Source: Gammaproteobacteria bacterium (lineage in GTDB: Bacteria; Pseudomonadota; Gammaproteobacteria; GCA-001735895). From it: a DNA stretch of 49,427 nt. The DNA lies in assembly GCA_029862005.1 (NCBI GenBank), contig JAOTYD010000023.1:1-49427 (forward strand), given 5' to 3'. The translations under genes and the position numbers were made by a program. Every line of letters begins with the position of its first letter. The stretch's first letter is position 1. Shown here one piece after another: positions 1 through 8,996 of the stretch. The notes beneath the pieces are model-generated. The model made no database searches. It saw only the letters and a list, made by a program, of their open reading frames with translations, and had not been told where the DNA came from.

Positions 1-196
1 CCCACAATCGTGCGATTGCTCAGGGTGCGGGACGCTCTAGCCTGTTATTAAGAACACTCTAGTTCCCAGGTAGTCTCTGCACCTTCCAGAAGTGTACTTC
101 TGGCTTGGCTCAGGGTTACCTTCAGCCCGGCTGTTAAGGGTTCCCTGAATTCATCCCGTTCATCCAATATCTTTCGATATAGGCGCACCATGTTTG
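1..196 (-). ncRNA. Group I self-splicing intron in tRNA-Ile(CAU), 3' end off the window
   Basis: The intron begins at 196, right after the anticodon. P1 forms as exon CAU plus intron CA pairing with UGGUG (190-186), a 4-nt loop between, which puts the expected U·G pair at the 5' splice site. P2 (183-164) is closed by a GAAA tetraloop. A P-like element with CAGGG (151-138), a P5 hairpin with CAGC/GCTG, a Q element with CCCTGAGCCAAG (117-102), a P6 hairpin CCAGAAG/CTTCTGG (103-86) and the R element GGTGCAGAGACTA (83-71) follow in canonical order. P4 pairs CAGGG with CCCTG. The P7 3' strand, P9 and the 3' splice site lie beyond position 1. Introns of this kind at the tRNA-Ile anticodon are known, for example in Azoarcus. 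Confidence 0.88.
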
Positions 197-233
197 ATGA
201 GTCCCCTGCTCTAACCAGCTGAGCTACAGGCCC
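197..233 (-). tRNA. tRNA-Ile(CAU), 5' exon only, split by a group I intron
   Basis: On the minus strand, positions 233 down to 197 read as the first 37 nt of a tRNA: acceptor strand GGGCCTG, TA, D stem GCTC/GAGC around an AGCTGGTTA loop, anticodon stem GGGGA, then CT and the anticodon CAT. The sequence resembles bacterial tRNA-Ile(CAU), whose wobble C is modified to lysidine by TilS, although elongator tRNA-Met cannot be fully excluded without the 3' half. After CAT the sequence stops being tRNA and becomes intron. The 3' exon is not in the window. Only the first part of the gene can therefore be annotated here. Confidence 0.88.
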
Positions 234-338: not shown

Positions 339-704
339 ATGAATTGCATTGTATGTAACAAACCGCTGCGAGGCCGGCAAAGTAAATTCTGCTCTCGTGA
401 ATGTAAGAACAAGTCGGGTAACCTGGCCTACCAAAGTTACCAGGCGCAACAGAAGCGAGGTCGGCTTAGAAAGCTGGAGTTAGTGAGAATGAATAGGGGG
501 GCCTGTGATAAATGCGGCTACGACAGAAATTACGCCGCTCTCGAATTTCATCATTTGGATTCAGGCAAAAAATCTTTTCAGCTGGATCTTCGTTCACTGT
601 CAAATCGCAAATGGTCGGTCATTGTGAAGGAGGCGGAGAAATGCATTCTACTTTGCTCGAATTGTCATGCGGAATTGCATAATCCTGCATGTATCATGGA
701 GTGA
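339..704 (+). CDS. HNH endonuclease, free-standing, beside the split tRNA gene
   Basis: This 121-residue protein has two metal-binding parts. Residues C3, C6, C18 and C22 form an N-terminal zinc knuckle of the FCSxxC type. Residues C56 and C59, the H71-H72 pair, then C106, N108, C109, H110 and H114 form an HNH nuclease fold with a structural zinc. The middle (about 25-50) is basic and probably contacts DNA. No clear Shine-Dalgarno sequence precedes the ATG, and the upstream region is more A+T-rich than the rest of the window. The gene is divergent from the intron-containing tRNA gene, about 105 bp from its 5' end. HNH enzymes of this size often act as homing endonucleases; a role in mobilising the neighbouring intron is an inference. 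A restriction or repair role is the alternative. Confidence 0.8.
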   Translation: MNCIVCNKPLRGRQSKFCSRECKNKSGNLAYQSYQAQQKRGRLRKLELVRMNRGACDKCGYDRNYAALEFHHLDSGKKSFQLDLRSLSNRKWSVIVKEAEKCILLCSNCHAELHNPACIME

Positions 705-884: not shown

Positions 885-2684
885 TTAATCGGCGTCGATG
901 AAGCTACGCAATTGCTCGGAACGGCTCGGGTGACGCAGCTTGCGTAACGCCTTGGCTTCGATCTGACGTATCCGTTCACGCGTGACGTCGAACTGCTTGC
1001 CGACCTCCTCGAGCGTGTGGTCGGTATTCATATCGATACCGAAGCGCATCCGCAGTACCTTGGCCTCGCGCGGGGTCAGGCTCGACAGGATTTCACGTGT
1101 CGATTCAGACAGGCCGGCATTGGTTGCCGTATCGGCCGGCAGCAGCACGTTGGTATCTTCGATAAAATCACCGAGATTTGAATCTTCGTCATCACCGATC
1201 GGGGTGGCCATGGATATCGGTTCCTTCGATATCTTGAGTACCTTGCGCACCTTGTCTTCGGGCAGATCCATGCGCTCAGCCAGTTCTTCCGGCTGCGGGT
1301 CACGCCCCAGTTCCTGCAACATCTGGCGCGAAATGCGGTTCAGCTTATTGATGGTCTCGATCATATGCACCGGGATGCGGATGGTGCGTGCCTGGTCCGC
1401 GATTGAACGCGTGATGGCCTGGCGTATCCACCAGGTGGCGTAGGTCGAAAATTTATAGCCCCTGCGATACTCAAATTTATCCACTGCCTTCATCAGGCCG
1501 ATGTTGCCTTCCTGGATCAGGTCGAGGAACTGCAGTCCGCGATTGGTGTATTTTTTCGCGATCGAGATGACCAGTCGCAGGTTGGCCTCGATCATTTCCT
1601 TTTTCGCGCGGCGTGCCTTGGCTTCGCCGATCGACATCTTGCGATTAATCTCCTTGATTTCGTGGATCGACAGGTTGGAGGCCTTTTCGATGTTTTTCAG
1701 GCGCTTCTGGTAACGCAGAATTTCCTCTTTGCAGCTTCCAAGAGTCTTGACATATTTCTCTCCTGACTTCAAGTGGGTATCGATCCAGTTAAGATTGGTC
1801 TCGTTGGCCTTGAAGGTTTCGATGAATGTCCGGCGCGGCATATTCGCCTGTTTCACGCAGATGTCAAGAATGGTACGTTCGTTGGTCCGGATGCGGTTGA
1901 TAACGTCTTTCAGGTTGATGCTGAGCCTGTCGATAAACAGCGGTAGCAGCTTAATCTCCATCAGTTCGTTAACGGCGCGGTTCATATTGCGCTCGTATCC
2001 CTTGACGTCACCCTTGGGGATACAGTTCATGGCGCGGTTAAACGCGCGCTCAATGGTAGTGAAGCGTTTTGCGGCTTCCTCCGGGTCCGGGCCGGTATCA
2101 TCGACGTCAGCGTCTTCATCGTCTTCGCTGACCTGCGCTGCCGCTGGCAGGGGGATAGAGTTGGGATCTTCAGTCGGGTCGACGAAACCTACCAGCAGAT
2201 CGCTCAGCTTGGCCTTGTCTTCCTTCACCTCGTTATAGCGTTCGAAGATCAAGCGCATCGTGTCAGGATAGCGAGCGAGCGAGCTTATCGCCTGGTTGAG
2301 GCCGTTTTCGATGCGGCGGGCGATCTTGATTTCACCCTCGCGGGTAAGCAGTTCGACCGTCCCCATTTCACGCATGTACATGCGCACCGGGTCGGTAGTA
2401 CGTCCGAACTCGCTGTCGAGTGAAGCTAACGCTGCGGCCGCTTCCTCGGCCGCGTCTTCGTCCGGCTCGGTCTCGGTATCGCTCAGTATGTCCGTGGATT
2501 CTGTCGGTGCTGACTCATGGACCTTGATGCCCATGTCGTTGATCATACGGATGATGTCTTCAATCTGCTCCGGTTCAACGATCCCTTCAGGCAAATGATC
2601 GTTTACTTCGGTGTAGGTCAGAAAGCCCTGTTCCTTGCCTTTGGCAATGAGTTCTTTAAGCCGGGATTGCTGATCTTGATCCAT
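885..2684 (-). CDS. rpoD: RNA polymerase sigma-70 (housekeeping sigma factor)
   Basis: RpoD directs core RNA polymerase to housekeeping promoters. The 599-residue protein is full length for the family. Region 1.1 occupies about residues 1-80 and region 1.2 about 97-127. A long acidic non-conserved segment follows, with an Asp/Glu-rich patch at 187-203. Region 2 lies at about 363-432 (-10 recognition and melting, with the [10 protein letters not shown] stretch), region 3 at about 442-515 and region 4 at about 532-585. The region 4 helix-turn-helix (557-578) reads [18 protein letters not shown]. The start is supported by a purine-rich GAGG 6-7 nt upstream. It is the last gene of an apparent gltB-dnaG-rpoD unit and also has its own candidate promoter at 2723-2752. 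Confidence 0.98.
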
Positions 2685-2752: not shown

Positions 2753-2765
2753 GATAAGGAGTGTC

Positions 2766-4487
2766 TTATATTTGATTAGTGAACAATTTTTTATGTTCCA
2801 GCTTTTCCGCGTCGGAAAGCGTTTCACCCGATTGTAGTTTGGTTATCAATTGCCGCTGTCGATGATTGACATACTGGTTCTGGAGCCTTTCCAGGCAATC
2901 GGCAAACATCCGCTCCAGGCTTTCGTCATCCTCTACCGGCGGTTCCATCGCGGCGAGCTTGTAAAGGTGGGTTTCGTGATCGTCACCTTTGAAGCGATCA
3001 AGCAGGTTCTGGGTGCTGATTTCAGGCTCATCGTGGATACGATCGAGAAGCTTGAGCAGGAGATCAATCCCGGGTATACCGCTATCGGCAAGTTCGTCGT
3101 GAGTGCCGGTCGACAGCGCCAGCGCGGGTTTCTTCAGCAGCAGGTTAATGGCGAGTCGGGTGGGGGTCCAGTGCTGCTCGGGCAGCCTGTTAAAAGCCGC
3201 TGTAGCGGGCTTCTCCTCGCCGAGCAGCCGCAACATACGCGTATCGATCCGCTGTCCGATACGCTGCTCGACCTCGGCCAGTATCTGGTCCTTCAGGCTC
3301 TGTAGCGGAATCTGCTTGAAGTAGGGTCGCAGGCGGTCGAGAAGCTGTGCCCGGCCCTCGGGTGTCCTGGTGTCGCATTCCGCCAGCAGGGTTTCAAACA
3401 GGTACTCGGTCAGGGTGGAGGATGCATCTACTTGCTGGTTGAATGCCTTGCTGCCGAATTCGCTGATAAAGCTATCCGGATCCTGGCCCTCAGGCAGGAA
3501 CAGGAATTTCGCCAGACGCCCCTCCTTGAGTGAGGCCAGGCATTGTTCGAGCGAGCGCCAGGCCGCTTTCTTGCCGGCGGCATCGCCATCGAAACAAAAC
3601 ACGAGGTTTTTACAGACGCGAAACAGCGTCTCGATTTGCCGATTATTGATCGCGGTACCGAGCGTCGCCACCGCGGTTTTCACCCCGTGTTCGGCGAGCG
3701 CGACGACGTCCATGTATCCCTCGGTTATAAAGATACGTTCGATATTGGTGACGTCTCTCTTGAGTTCATAGAGCCCATAAATTTCATCACTTTTATGGAA
3801 CAGTGGCGATTCCGGAGAGTTCAGATACTTTGGATTGTCCTCGGGATTGATCACGCGCCCGCCGAAGGCAATGGTGCGGCCGCGACGATCCCGAATCGGA
3901 AACATCAGCCGATGGCGGAAGCGATCATAAGGTTTACCCGTCTCTTTTTTTACCAGCATGCCGGTGTCGACAAGCTGCTTCTCATCGCCATCGAGGTTGT
4001 TCCAGCCCGGTGGCGCGTAGCCGATGGTAAACGCCTTCGCGGTCTGGCCGCTGATGCCTCGATTTTTCAGGTATTCGATCGCATCCGGAGTCTGCTTCAG
4101 CCGGTCTTGAAAATGTTTCGCGCATTGCTCCAGTGACTGGTACATTGATTCGAGCCCCGGCGCCGGCTTGGGCGGCGCGCTGCCCTTTTCATAGGGAACC
4201 TCGAGTCCGAGCGATTGTGCCAGCGCCTCGACGGCCTCGACGAACTCCATGTGGTCATAGTCCATCAGAAAACCGACCGCGTTACCCGATTTCTGGCAGC
4301 CGAAACAATGGTAAAACTGCTTGGTCGAGCTAACCGAAAAAGACGCGGTTTTCTCACCATGGAAGGGACAGCAGGCCCAGTACTCGCGACCTTTCTTCTT
4401 TAACGGCACGCGGCTGTCGATAACCTCGACAATATCGACCCGGTTGAGCAGGTCATCGATAAAATTACGCGGAATCCTTCCTGCCAT
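2766..4487 (-). CDS. dnaG: DNA primase
   Basis: DnaG makes RNA primers at the replication fork. The 573-residue protein starts with the zinc-binding domain, ligands C40, H43, C61 and C64 (CPFH ... CFGC). The RNA polymerase core follows, with a TOPRIM fold at about 250-335 containing E256 in the EGYMDVV motif and the D300-G-D302 acid pair. The C-terminal third, less conserved, is the DnaB helicase-binding domain. The gene starts 24 bp after the gltB stop, with no terminator between them, so primase is probably co-transcribed with glutamate synthase. That is unusual: in most gammaproteobacteria dnaG follows rpsU. Confidence 0.97.
   Translation of the reverse strand: MAGRIPRNFIDDLLNRVDIVEVIDSRVPLKKKGREYWACCPFHGEKTASFSVSSTKQFYHCFGCQKSGNAVGFLMDYDHMEFVEAVEALAQSLGLEVPYEKGSAPPKPAPGLESMYQSLEQCAKHFQDRLKQTPDAIEYLKNRGISGQTAKAFTIGYAPPGWNNLDGDEKQLVDTGMLVKKETGKPYDRFRHRLMFPIRDRRGRTIAFGGRVINPEDNPKYLNSPESPLFHKSDEIYGLYELKRDVTNIERIFITEGYMDVVALAEHGVKTAVATLGTAINNRQIETLFRVCKNLVFCFDGDAAGKKAAWRSLEQCLASLKEGRLAKFLFLPEGQDPDSFISEFGSKAFNQQVDASSTLTEYLFETLLAECDTRTPEGRAQLLDRLRPYFKQIPLQSLKDQILAEVEQRIGQRIDTRMLRLLGEEKPATAAFNRLPEQHWTPTRLAINLLLKKPALALSTGTHDELADSGIPGIDLLLKLLDRIHDEPEISTQNLLDRFKGDDHETHLYKLAAMEPPVEDDESLERMFADCLERLQNQYVNHRQRQLITKLQSGETLSDAEKLEHKKLFTNQI

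Positions 4488-4511: not shown

Positions 4512-8996
<4,485 letters not shown>

Follow-up and report, generated by a model that had tools for sequence, protein, structure and literature searches.

The window, the whole stretch of 49,427 nucleotides analysed here, is contig C23 of the gammaproteobacterial genome G000, and the contig end falls inside a group I intron. The split tRNA gene lies on the minus strand, which corrects the strand of an earlier note on this DNA. Its 37-nt 5' exon (197..233, minus) belongs to a tRNA-Ile(CAU) and ends in the anticodon CAT, and the joined and spliced gene reads as a CAU tRNA. The exon is followed by the first 196 of the 239 nt of the intron (1..196, minus), recognised by the RF00028 match, a 127-nt overlap with a second contig and covariation. 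Within it the P7.1 element (intron nt 127-156; 41..70, minus) lies between the 5' strand of P7 and the 3' strand of P3. On the other side of the exon, a free-standing gene for an HNH endonuclease-like protein of 121 aa (339..704, plus) runs divergently from the tRNA gene, with its start codon 105 nt from the tRNA 5' end. Beyond it follows an ORF of 599 aa (885..2684, minus), presumably an rpoD-like gene, a name that we take from familiar sigma-70 sequence. This gene is kept beside tRNA-Ile in relatives, and we use it as the conserved neighbour that marks the locus and as context outside the element. The HNH gene thus sits between the rpoD-like gene and the tRNA.

The RF00028 model matches the window from 209 to 1 with 45.8 bits (E 1.2e-10), the match being cut off at its 3' end. 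The earlier note had claimed that the tRNA breaks off directly after CAT, that a group I intron comes next, and that a P1 U.G pair, a GAAA-capped P2 and the elements P, Q and R are present. The first two claims are borne out by the sequence and the RF00028 match, and P1, P2 and the P3-P7 core by the sequence, the alignment and the covariation. In the covariance-model check that it had proposed, the partial gene stays below the gathering score of 50 bits, and no match for the window passed default thresholds in the covariance-model and tRNA search. Whole-model matches in eight loci of relatives (L008, L009, L010 and L012-L016) reach 72.7-88.9 bits.

The missing part of the gene is found on another contig. 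An 18-mer from the window end occurs once more in G000, on contig C81 (L006), and the ends of C23 and C81 share exactly 127 nt. The two contigs look like neighbours in the assembly graph, and their unmerged state suggests a branch there. C81 supplies the last 43 nt of the intron, with the 3' strand of P7, P9 and the terminal G, followed by the 3' exon AATCCCTTGG...GGGCCCACCA, starting AATCCC; these are the features that the earlier note wanted looked for in the flanking sequence. The joined intron has 239 nt, with no room for an ORF of the size of the HNH gene, and the spliced tRNA has 77 nt and a CAU anticodon (ARAGORN). The window holds 196 of the 239 intron nucleotides, about four fifths and not the two thirds estimated before. 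The join is supported because relatives carry the whole gene on one contig. The G007 gene (L016) is 97.5% identical to the joined gene over all 316 nt, and whole-gene identity is 93% in G030 and G002, 90% in G013 and 82% in G018. CAU tRNAs are labelled Met by ARAGORN; our assignment to Ile assumes the tRNA features that we know for it and the rpoD-side position, which we take to be the neighbourhood of E. coli ileX. Some 310 nt beyond the 3' end of the tRNA on C81, a 94-aa ORF (L006, 3509-3793, minus) resembles by eye the joined ends of a tyrosine recombinase, and it matches no Pfam family.

The copy number of the gene was assessed in the whole assembly. All 32 tRNA matches over the Rfam cut-off in G000 were read, and two have a CAU anticodon, which we take by their sequence to be the elongator and the initiator tRNA-Met. 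A search of G000 for an intact tRNA-Ile(CAU) junction, allowing up to three mismatches, found none. No tRNA-Ile(CAU) other than the intron-bearing gene was found in the assembly, and this gene looks essential and single-copy; a second copy could have been missed because the assembly is 97% complete. Since ARAGORN finds no tRNA in the window, tRNA annotation can overlook an essential gene. Beyond two genes of PF01171 (TilS/TtcA type) in G000, we found nothing that bears on the suggestion of the earlier note that splicing could control the decoding of AUA, which at present is a conjecture. In two relatives the intron-bearing gene is followed by a further tRNA-Ile(CAU)-like copy, an intact one in G007 (L016, 263-339 and 425-740) and a weaker one in G013 (L013, 1476-1872; 40.6 bits, uncalled by ARAGORN), so splicing need not be essential for every carrier.

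The intron family

A scan with the intron core pattern gave at least 120 matching stretches in viral contigs and at least 120 in named genomes. Most of the latter bear the title Gammaproteobacteria or Proteobacteria, and a few belong to other groups. In a class sample, 20 of 369 genomes match the pattern exactly, including our own genome and one tRNA-CUU case, a count that contradicts the earlier statement that such introns are rare in gammaproteobacteria; the pattern also misses variants such as that of G071. Among the 120 named loci listed (at least 120 exist), 87 were used and 33 were dropped, either because both exons were unrecognised by our regular expressions or because they are not tRNA loci. 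L061 and G002, and likewise L148 and G030, are probable duplicates between samples.

The intron alignment contains 78 rows, kept from 117 (116 loci and our own gene) after dereplication at 90% identity. With the structure drawn on the sequence of the window, both partners vary in 46 of 68 pairs, compared with 30.4 in shuffles. Paired cells amount to 91.4%, compared with 81.0% in shuffled alignments and at most 44.6% when the structure is slid. The covarying helices are P2, P5, P6a, P7.1 and P9. P6 and P7 are neutral as covariation evidence because they never vary, and the distal helix of P8 is a poor fit, with 33.6% paired. The P1 U-G pair is present in 76 of the 78 rows and the terminal G is invariant. 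Excision restores a CAU tRNA in 73 rows and a CUU tRNA in one, the remaining four being uncalled by ARAGORN. The identity of the tRNA-Ile(CAU) insert as a group I intron is confirmed; taken by itself, the intron adds a member to a known kind.

P7.1 bears on the class of the intron. Its two helices (9 and 10 of the drawn structure) are 100% paired, with double changes in five of eight pairs. A P7.1 between P7 and P3 marks the IA class and excludes IC3, and to our knowledge IC3 introns have no P7.1 at this place. The covarying P7.1 argues against the Azoarcus IC3 type for this intron, by a class criterion that is general background. The accessible text of PMC3984707 names P7.1 as a group I class feature, giving no details there.

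Other introns were met in the same material. At a matching position, the same intron family splits a tRNA with a CUU anticodon (tRNA-Lys) in L012 (G046, 1454-1767, minus). The 3' part of a tRNA-Ile intron in L020 (G036, contig C149, 1450-1823) has a P7.1 region that runs on into a sequence ending, by eye, with an ORF of about 74 aa; P7.1 may hold an inserted ORF here. Different group I introns of relatives lie in tRNA-Leu(UAA) (L017, L019) and in 23S rRNA (L011). The other RF00028 matches in G000 were considered as copies of the tRNA intron and rejected: the one on C68 is a tmRNA intron and the one on C18 is weak, with 19 bits. An origin from phage tRNA-Ile introns was likewise rejected; 134 pattern matches were found in the 120 viral loci listed (at least 120 exist), two passed a crude tRNA filter, and both lie by eye in protein-gene contexts.

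The HNH gene and its company

The HNH gene and a reading as a mobile element are absent from the earlier note. Against the PHROG HNH endonuclease families, the protein has a best E value of 6e-22, and its Pfam HNH match of 18 bits lies below the cut-off of 21.4 bits. Paired His and Cys residues are invariant in an alignment of 14 HNH rows. The AlphaFold2 model has a pLDDT of 92.2, and its structure matches are mostly HNH nucleases but weak, with no Foldseek E value below 0.09 and a best Z of 5.2. A PDB sequence search gave no match below E 0.03, and an NCBIfam search named nothing useful. For one pair of HNH genes dN/dS is 0.108, which indicates purifying selection.

The gene keeps company with the intron. 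In the genus sample the tRNA-Ile intron is found in 6 of 31 genomes and HNH in exactly the same six (broken in G007 and G030); Fisher's test gives p 1.4e-6, uncorrected for kinship. G005 and G029 of this sample carry other group I introns, not the tRNA-Ile one. Among the 25 genomes lacking the intron, an intact tRNA-Ile junction was recognised by pattern in 12, and in the ten intronless relatives whose analysed stretch reaches rpoD, rpoD is followed by tRNA-Ile and no HNH gene is seen. In four intronless loci (L029, L031, L032, L035), the intact tRNA is preceded by 5' tRNA-Ile fragments of 22-40 nt that resemble remnants of an integration or duplication at this tRNA. In the class sample HNH is found in 3 of 369 genomes, each time adjoining an intron-bearing tRNA-Ile (in G071 with a variant intron outside the pattern); against the 18 other intron carriers p is 1.6e-4, a value which, like that of the genus, overstates independence because the genomes are related. 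HNH is present in 1 of 398 genomes of the phylum sample, our own, and in the families of G344 and G071 only in the centre genomes (1 of 20 and 1 of 3).

The 87 named loci among the matches listed include 10 with a full HNH gene, 4 with a partial one, 68 with none and 5 with too little sequence. The intron persists, and perhaps spreads, without HNH, since 68 of the 82 listed loci with enough upstream sequence lack it. Outside these 87, L058 has a full HNH gene and L069 one of 33% identity to our own. Identity to our HNH is otherwise 50-73% in named loci with a near full-length match, save L061 with 80% (probably G002). HNH homologues hold the same position beside the tRNA in other families. The distance from the start codon to the tRNA was measured in 14 loci (L058 is unmeasurable); it is 61-129 nt in 12 of them and 235-239 nt in the other two. 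In four named loci the HNH open frame overlaps the tRNA. Broken HNH copies occur in G007, G030, L053, L101 and L149.

Viral relatives of the HNH protein are also associated with tRNA genes. We collected 84 of them, the best 80 of 548 together with four chosen phage matches. Within 300 bp, ARAGORN finds a tRNA for 46 of these 84 and none for 38. A tRNA within 50 bp is found for 37 of the 84; the corresponding counts are 95 of 570 for the remaining ORFs of these loci and 7 of 1618 for the ORFs of a comparison set of other viral loci. The nearest tRNA has a CAU anticodon in five of the six top-scoring relatives with a tRNA within 100 bp and in 0 of the 39 others, again among the best 80 of 548 and the four chosen; the cut was chosen post hoc, L305 and L308 score as high and were left out as having no ARAGORN tRNA, and these CAU tRNAs may be Ile or Met. 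An HNH tree of 100 rows, with few columns and many weak forks, was labelled CAU, Asn-GUU, Arg-UCU or bacterial. These labels require 5 changes on it, compared with a mean of 21.4 after shuffling, and none of 200 shuffles came down to 5; five of the six CAU rows group with the bacterial clade. On the viral contig L208 (about 2757-3560) a tRNA-Ile(CAU)-like gene appears split, and by eye an HNH relative ends in the anticodon region of its 3' half. Close to the start of this HNH ORF stands an in-frame TGA, which may be a recoded stop.

A proposed homing pair and its alternatives

We propose that the two genes are probably a collaborative-homing pair in a bacterial chromosome, consisting of a free-standing, tRNA-targeting HNH endonuclease and an intron with no ORF; splicing, cleavage, the target site and joint copying are what we infer beyond the observed arrangement. 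Our basis is the anatomy, the covariation, the co-occurrence, the fixed layout, the tRNA association of the HNH family and the broken HNH copies. Group I introns in general self-splice, and the present one would excise itself from the pre-tRNA. The HNH protein would cut intronless tRNA-Ile(CAU) alleles near the anticodon, and repair off the donor locus would copy the HNH gene together with the intron, both being copyable because the HNH gene and the exon are no more than about 105 nt apart. The donor would be safe because the intron splits the target site and so destroys it. After spread or fixation the HNH gene would decay and the intron would stay, as the broken copies suggest. On the turnover reading taken up below, HNH may instead re-invade intron-bearing loci, the intron giving immunity rather than moving each time. 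Intron and HNH gene may spread as a two-part selfish element.

A more specific proposal can be offered tentatively. The HNH clade, akin to phage tRNA-gene endonucleases, could have the anticodon arm of tRNA-Ile(CAU) as its specific target and could travel with an intron that makes its insertion harmless and blocks its own site. The wider family would then perhaps hold one nuclease per tRNA species, retargeted between tRNA genes.

It is also conceivable, though in our judgement rather unlikely, that the intron is a long-time resident and that HNH separately and repeatedly invades the spacer between rpoD and the tRNA, targeting the tRNA region and not moving the intron. Such turnover of homing endonuclease genes (HEGs) is offered as an alternative in the accessible portion of PMC10448857. 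Over 11 loci, the distances of intron and HNH show no significant correlation (rho 0.19, Mantel p 0.14), while those of intron and rpoD are weakly correlated (rho 0.34, p 0.02). The absent intron-HNH correlation is evidence against the two always travelling together and fits HNH turnover or re-invasion, and the many listed loci with the intron and no HNH point the same way. However, the HNH clade is seen only with the intron in the sampled cellular genomes, in all six carriers of the genus and all three of the class, whereas independent invasion would be expected also beside intronless tRNA-Ile genes, unless the intron is needed for immunity.

An explanation by shared neighbourhood, in which intron and HNH were inherited together from an ancestral rpoD-tRNA locus, with HNH playing no present homing role, is improbable. 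It would fit the gammaproteobacterial loci, where rpoD adjoins the tRNA-Ile locus in all whose available sequence includes it, and the presence of the intron, which clusters on the rpoD tree (3 changes, with 3 of 500 shuffles as low). But the HNH distances do not track rpoD (rho -0.16, p 0.76, 11 loci), and we rejected a descent of HNH with the host on this ground. In the bacterial clade of the HNH tree, moreover, the G018 protein groups with a Woeseiaceae protein and our own with one from Granulosicoccaceae, and the purifying selection in one HNH pair speaks against a loss of role.

That the gene is a decayed tRNA pseudogene or an assembly artefact is hardly credible: the contig stops inside the intron and the unmerged overlap suggests a branch, but the complete 3' part lies on C81, in relatives a single contig holds the whole gene, nearly all alignment rows give a CAU tRNA once the intron is removed, and the second intact tRNA-Ile(CAU) which, with a missing 3' half, the earlier note had named as the mark of a pseudogene was not found in G000, whose other CAU tRNAs are presumably Met.

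If the homing-pair reading is true, it provides a chromosomal case in a tRNA gene that looks essential and single-copy, and one genus displays its intact, broken and empty stages; the homing cycle and the origin of a composite mobile intron would become testable. With clades that track the tRNA species next to them, the HNH family would lend itself to studying how homing enzymes change target.

Comparison with known systems

The pairing of the intron with a tRNA-associated HNH gene in a bacterial chromosome appears new as far as our literature search goes, which worked on titles and abstract openings, covered few subscription papers and found no description of this tRNA-Ile intron with an adjacent HNH gene.

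The Azoarcus intron also splits a CAU tRNA and has the same CAU/GUG contact in P1. As at our locus, this IC3 intron of the pre-tRNA-Ile of Azoarcus sp. BH72 is a group I intron in a tRNA-Ile gene (PMC3984707, accessible text). The present intron differs in its P7.1 between P7 and P3, Azoarcus being set apart here by the general description of its class, and in the HNH gene that adjoins the intron-bearing gene.

In the I-Ssp6803I type the endonuclease of the tRNA-fMet intron is encoded inside the intron, whereas our HNH gene is outside. The group I introns in the T-loop of tmRNA are likewise in a structural RNA gene, at a different site, and according to the accessible sections of PMC11915505 their HEGs lie inside the intron. 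One such intron is present in G000 as well, in the T-loop region of its tmRNA (L007, contig C68, minus, 3' end at 6412; RF00028 28.3 bits, below the cut-off; RF00023 105.2 bits; uncalled by ARAGORN). A LAGLIDADG-type ORF of 142 aa (C68, 5893-6321, minus) starts 90 nt downstream of this tmRNA, outside the intron. In its tmRNA, G000 has another RNA gene that carries an intron and is adjoined by a homing-type gene standing free of it.

Collaborative homing is described from phages in the accessible parts of PMC3984707, PMC10448857 and PMC2988022, and the first two apply the term there to the layout of a free-standing HEG beside an intron with no ORF. In the same texts, collaborative homing in T7-like phages and a cyanophage, and homing in trans by T4 MobE, likewise involve an endonuclease gene that stands free and adjoins a gene whose intron encodes no endonuclease. 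Our pair differs in lying in a bacterial chromosome and in a tRNA gene, and its cleavage at the intron site is a prediction. T4 SegB is likewise a free-standing homing endonuclease in a tRNA gene region (PMC2988022, as far as its accessible text goes), but it is a GIY-YIG and not an HNH enzyme, is encoded by a phage and has no intron. By analogy, and within that text, SegB offers a precedent for such an enzyme at work in a region of tRNA genes.
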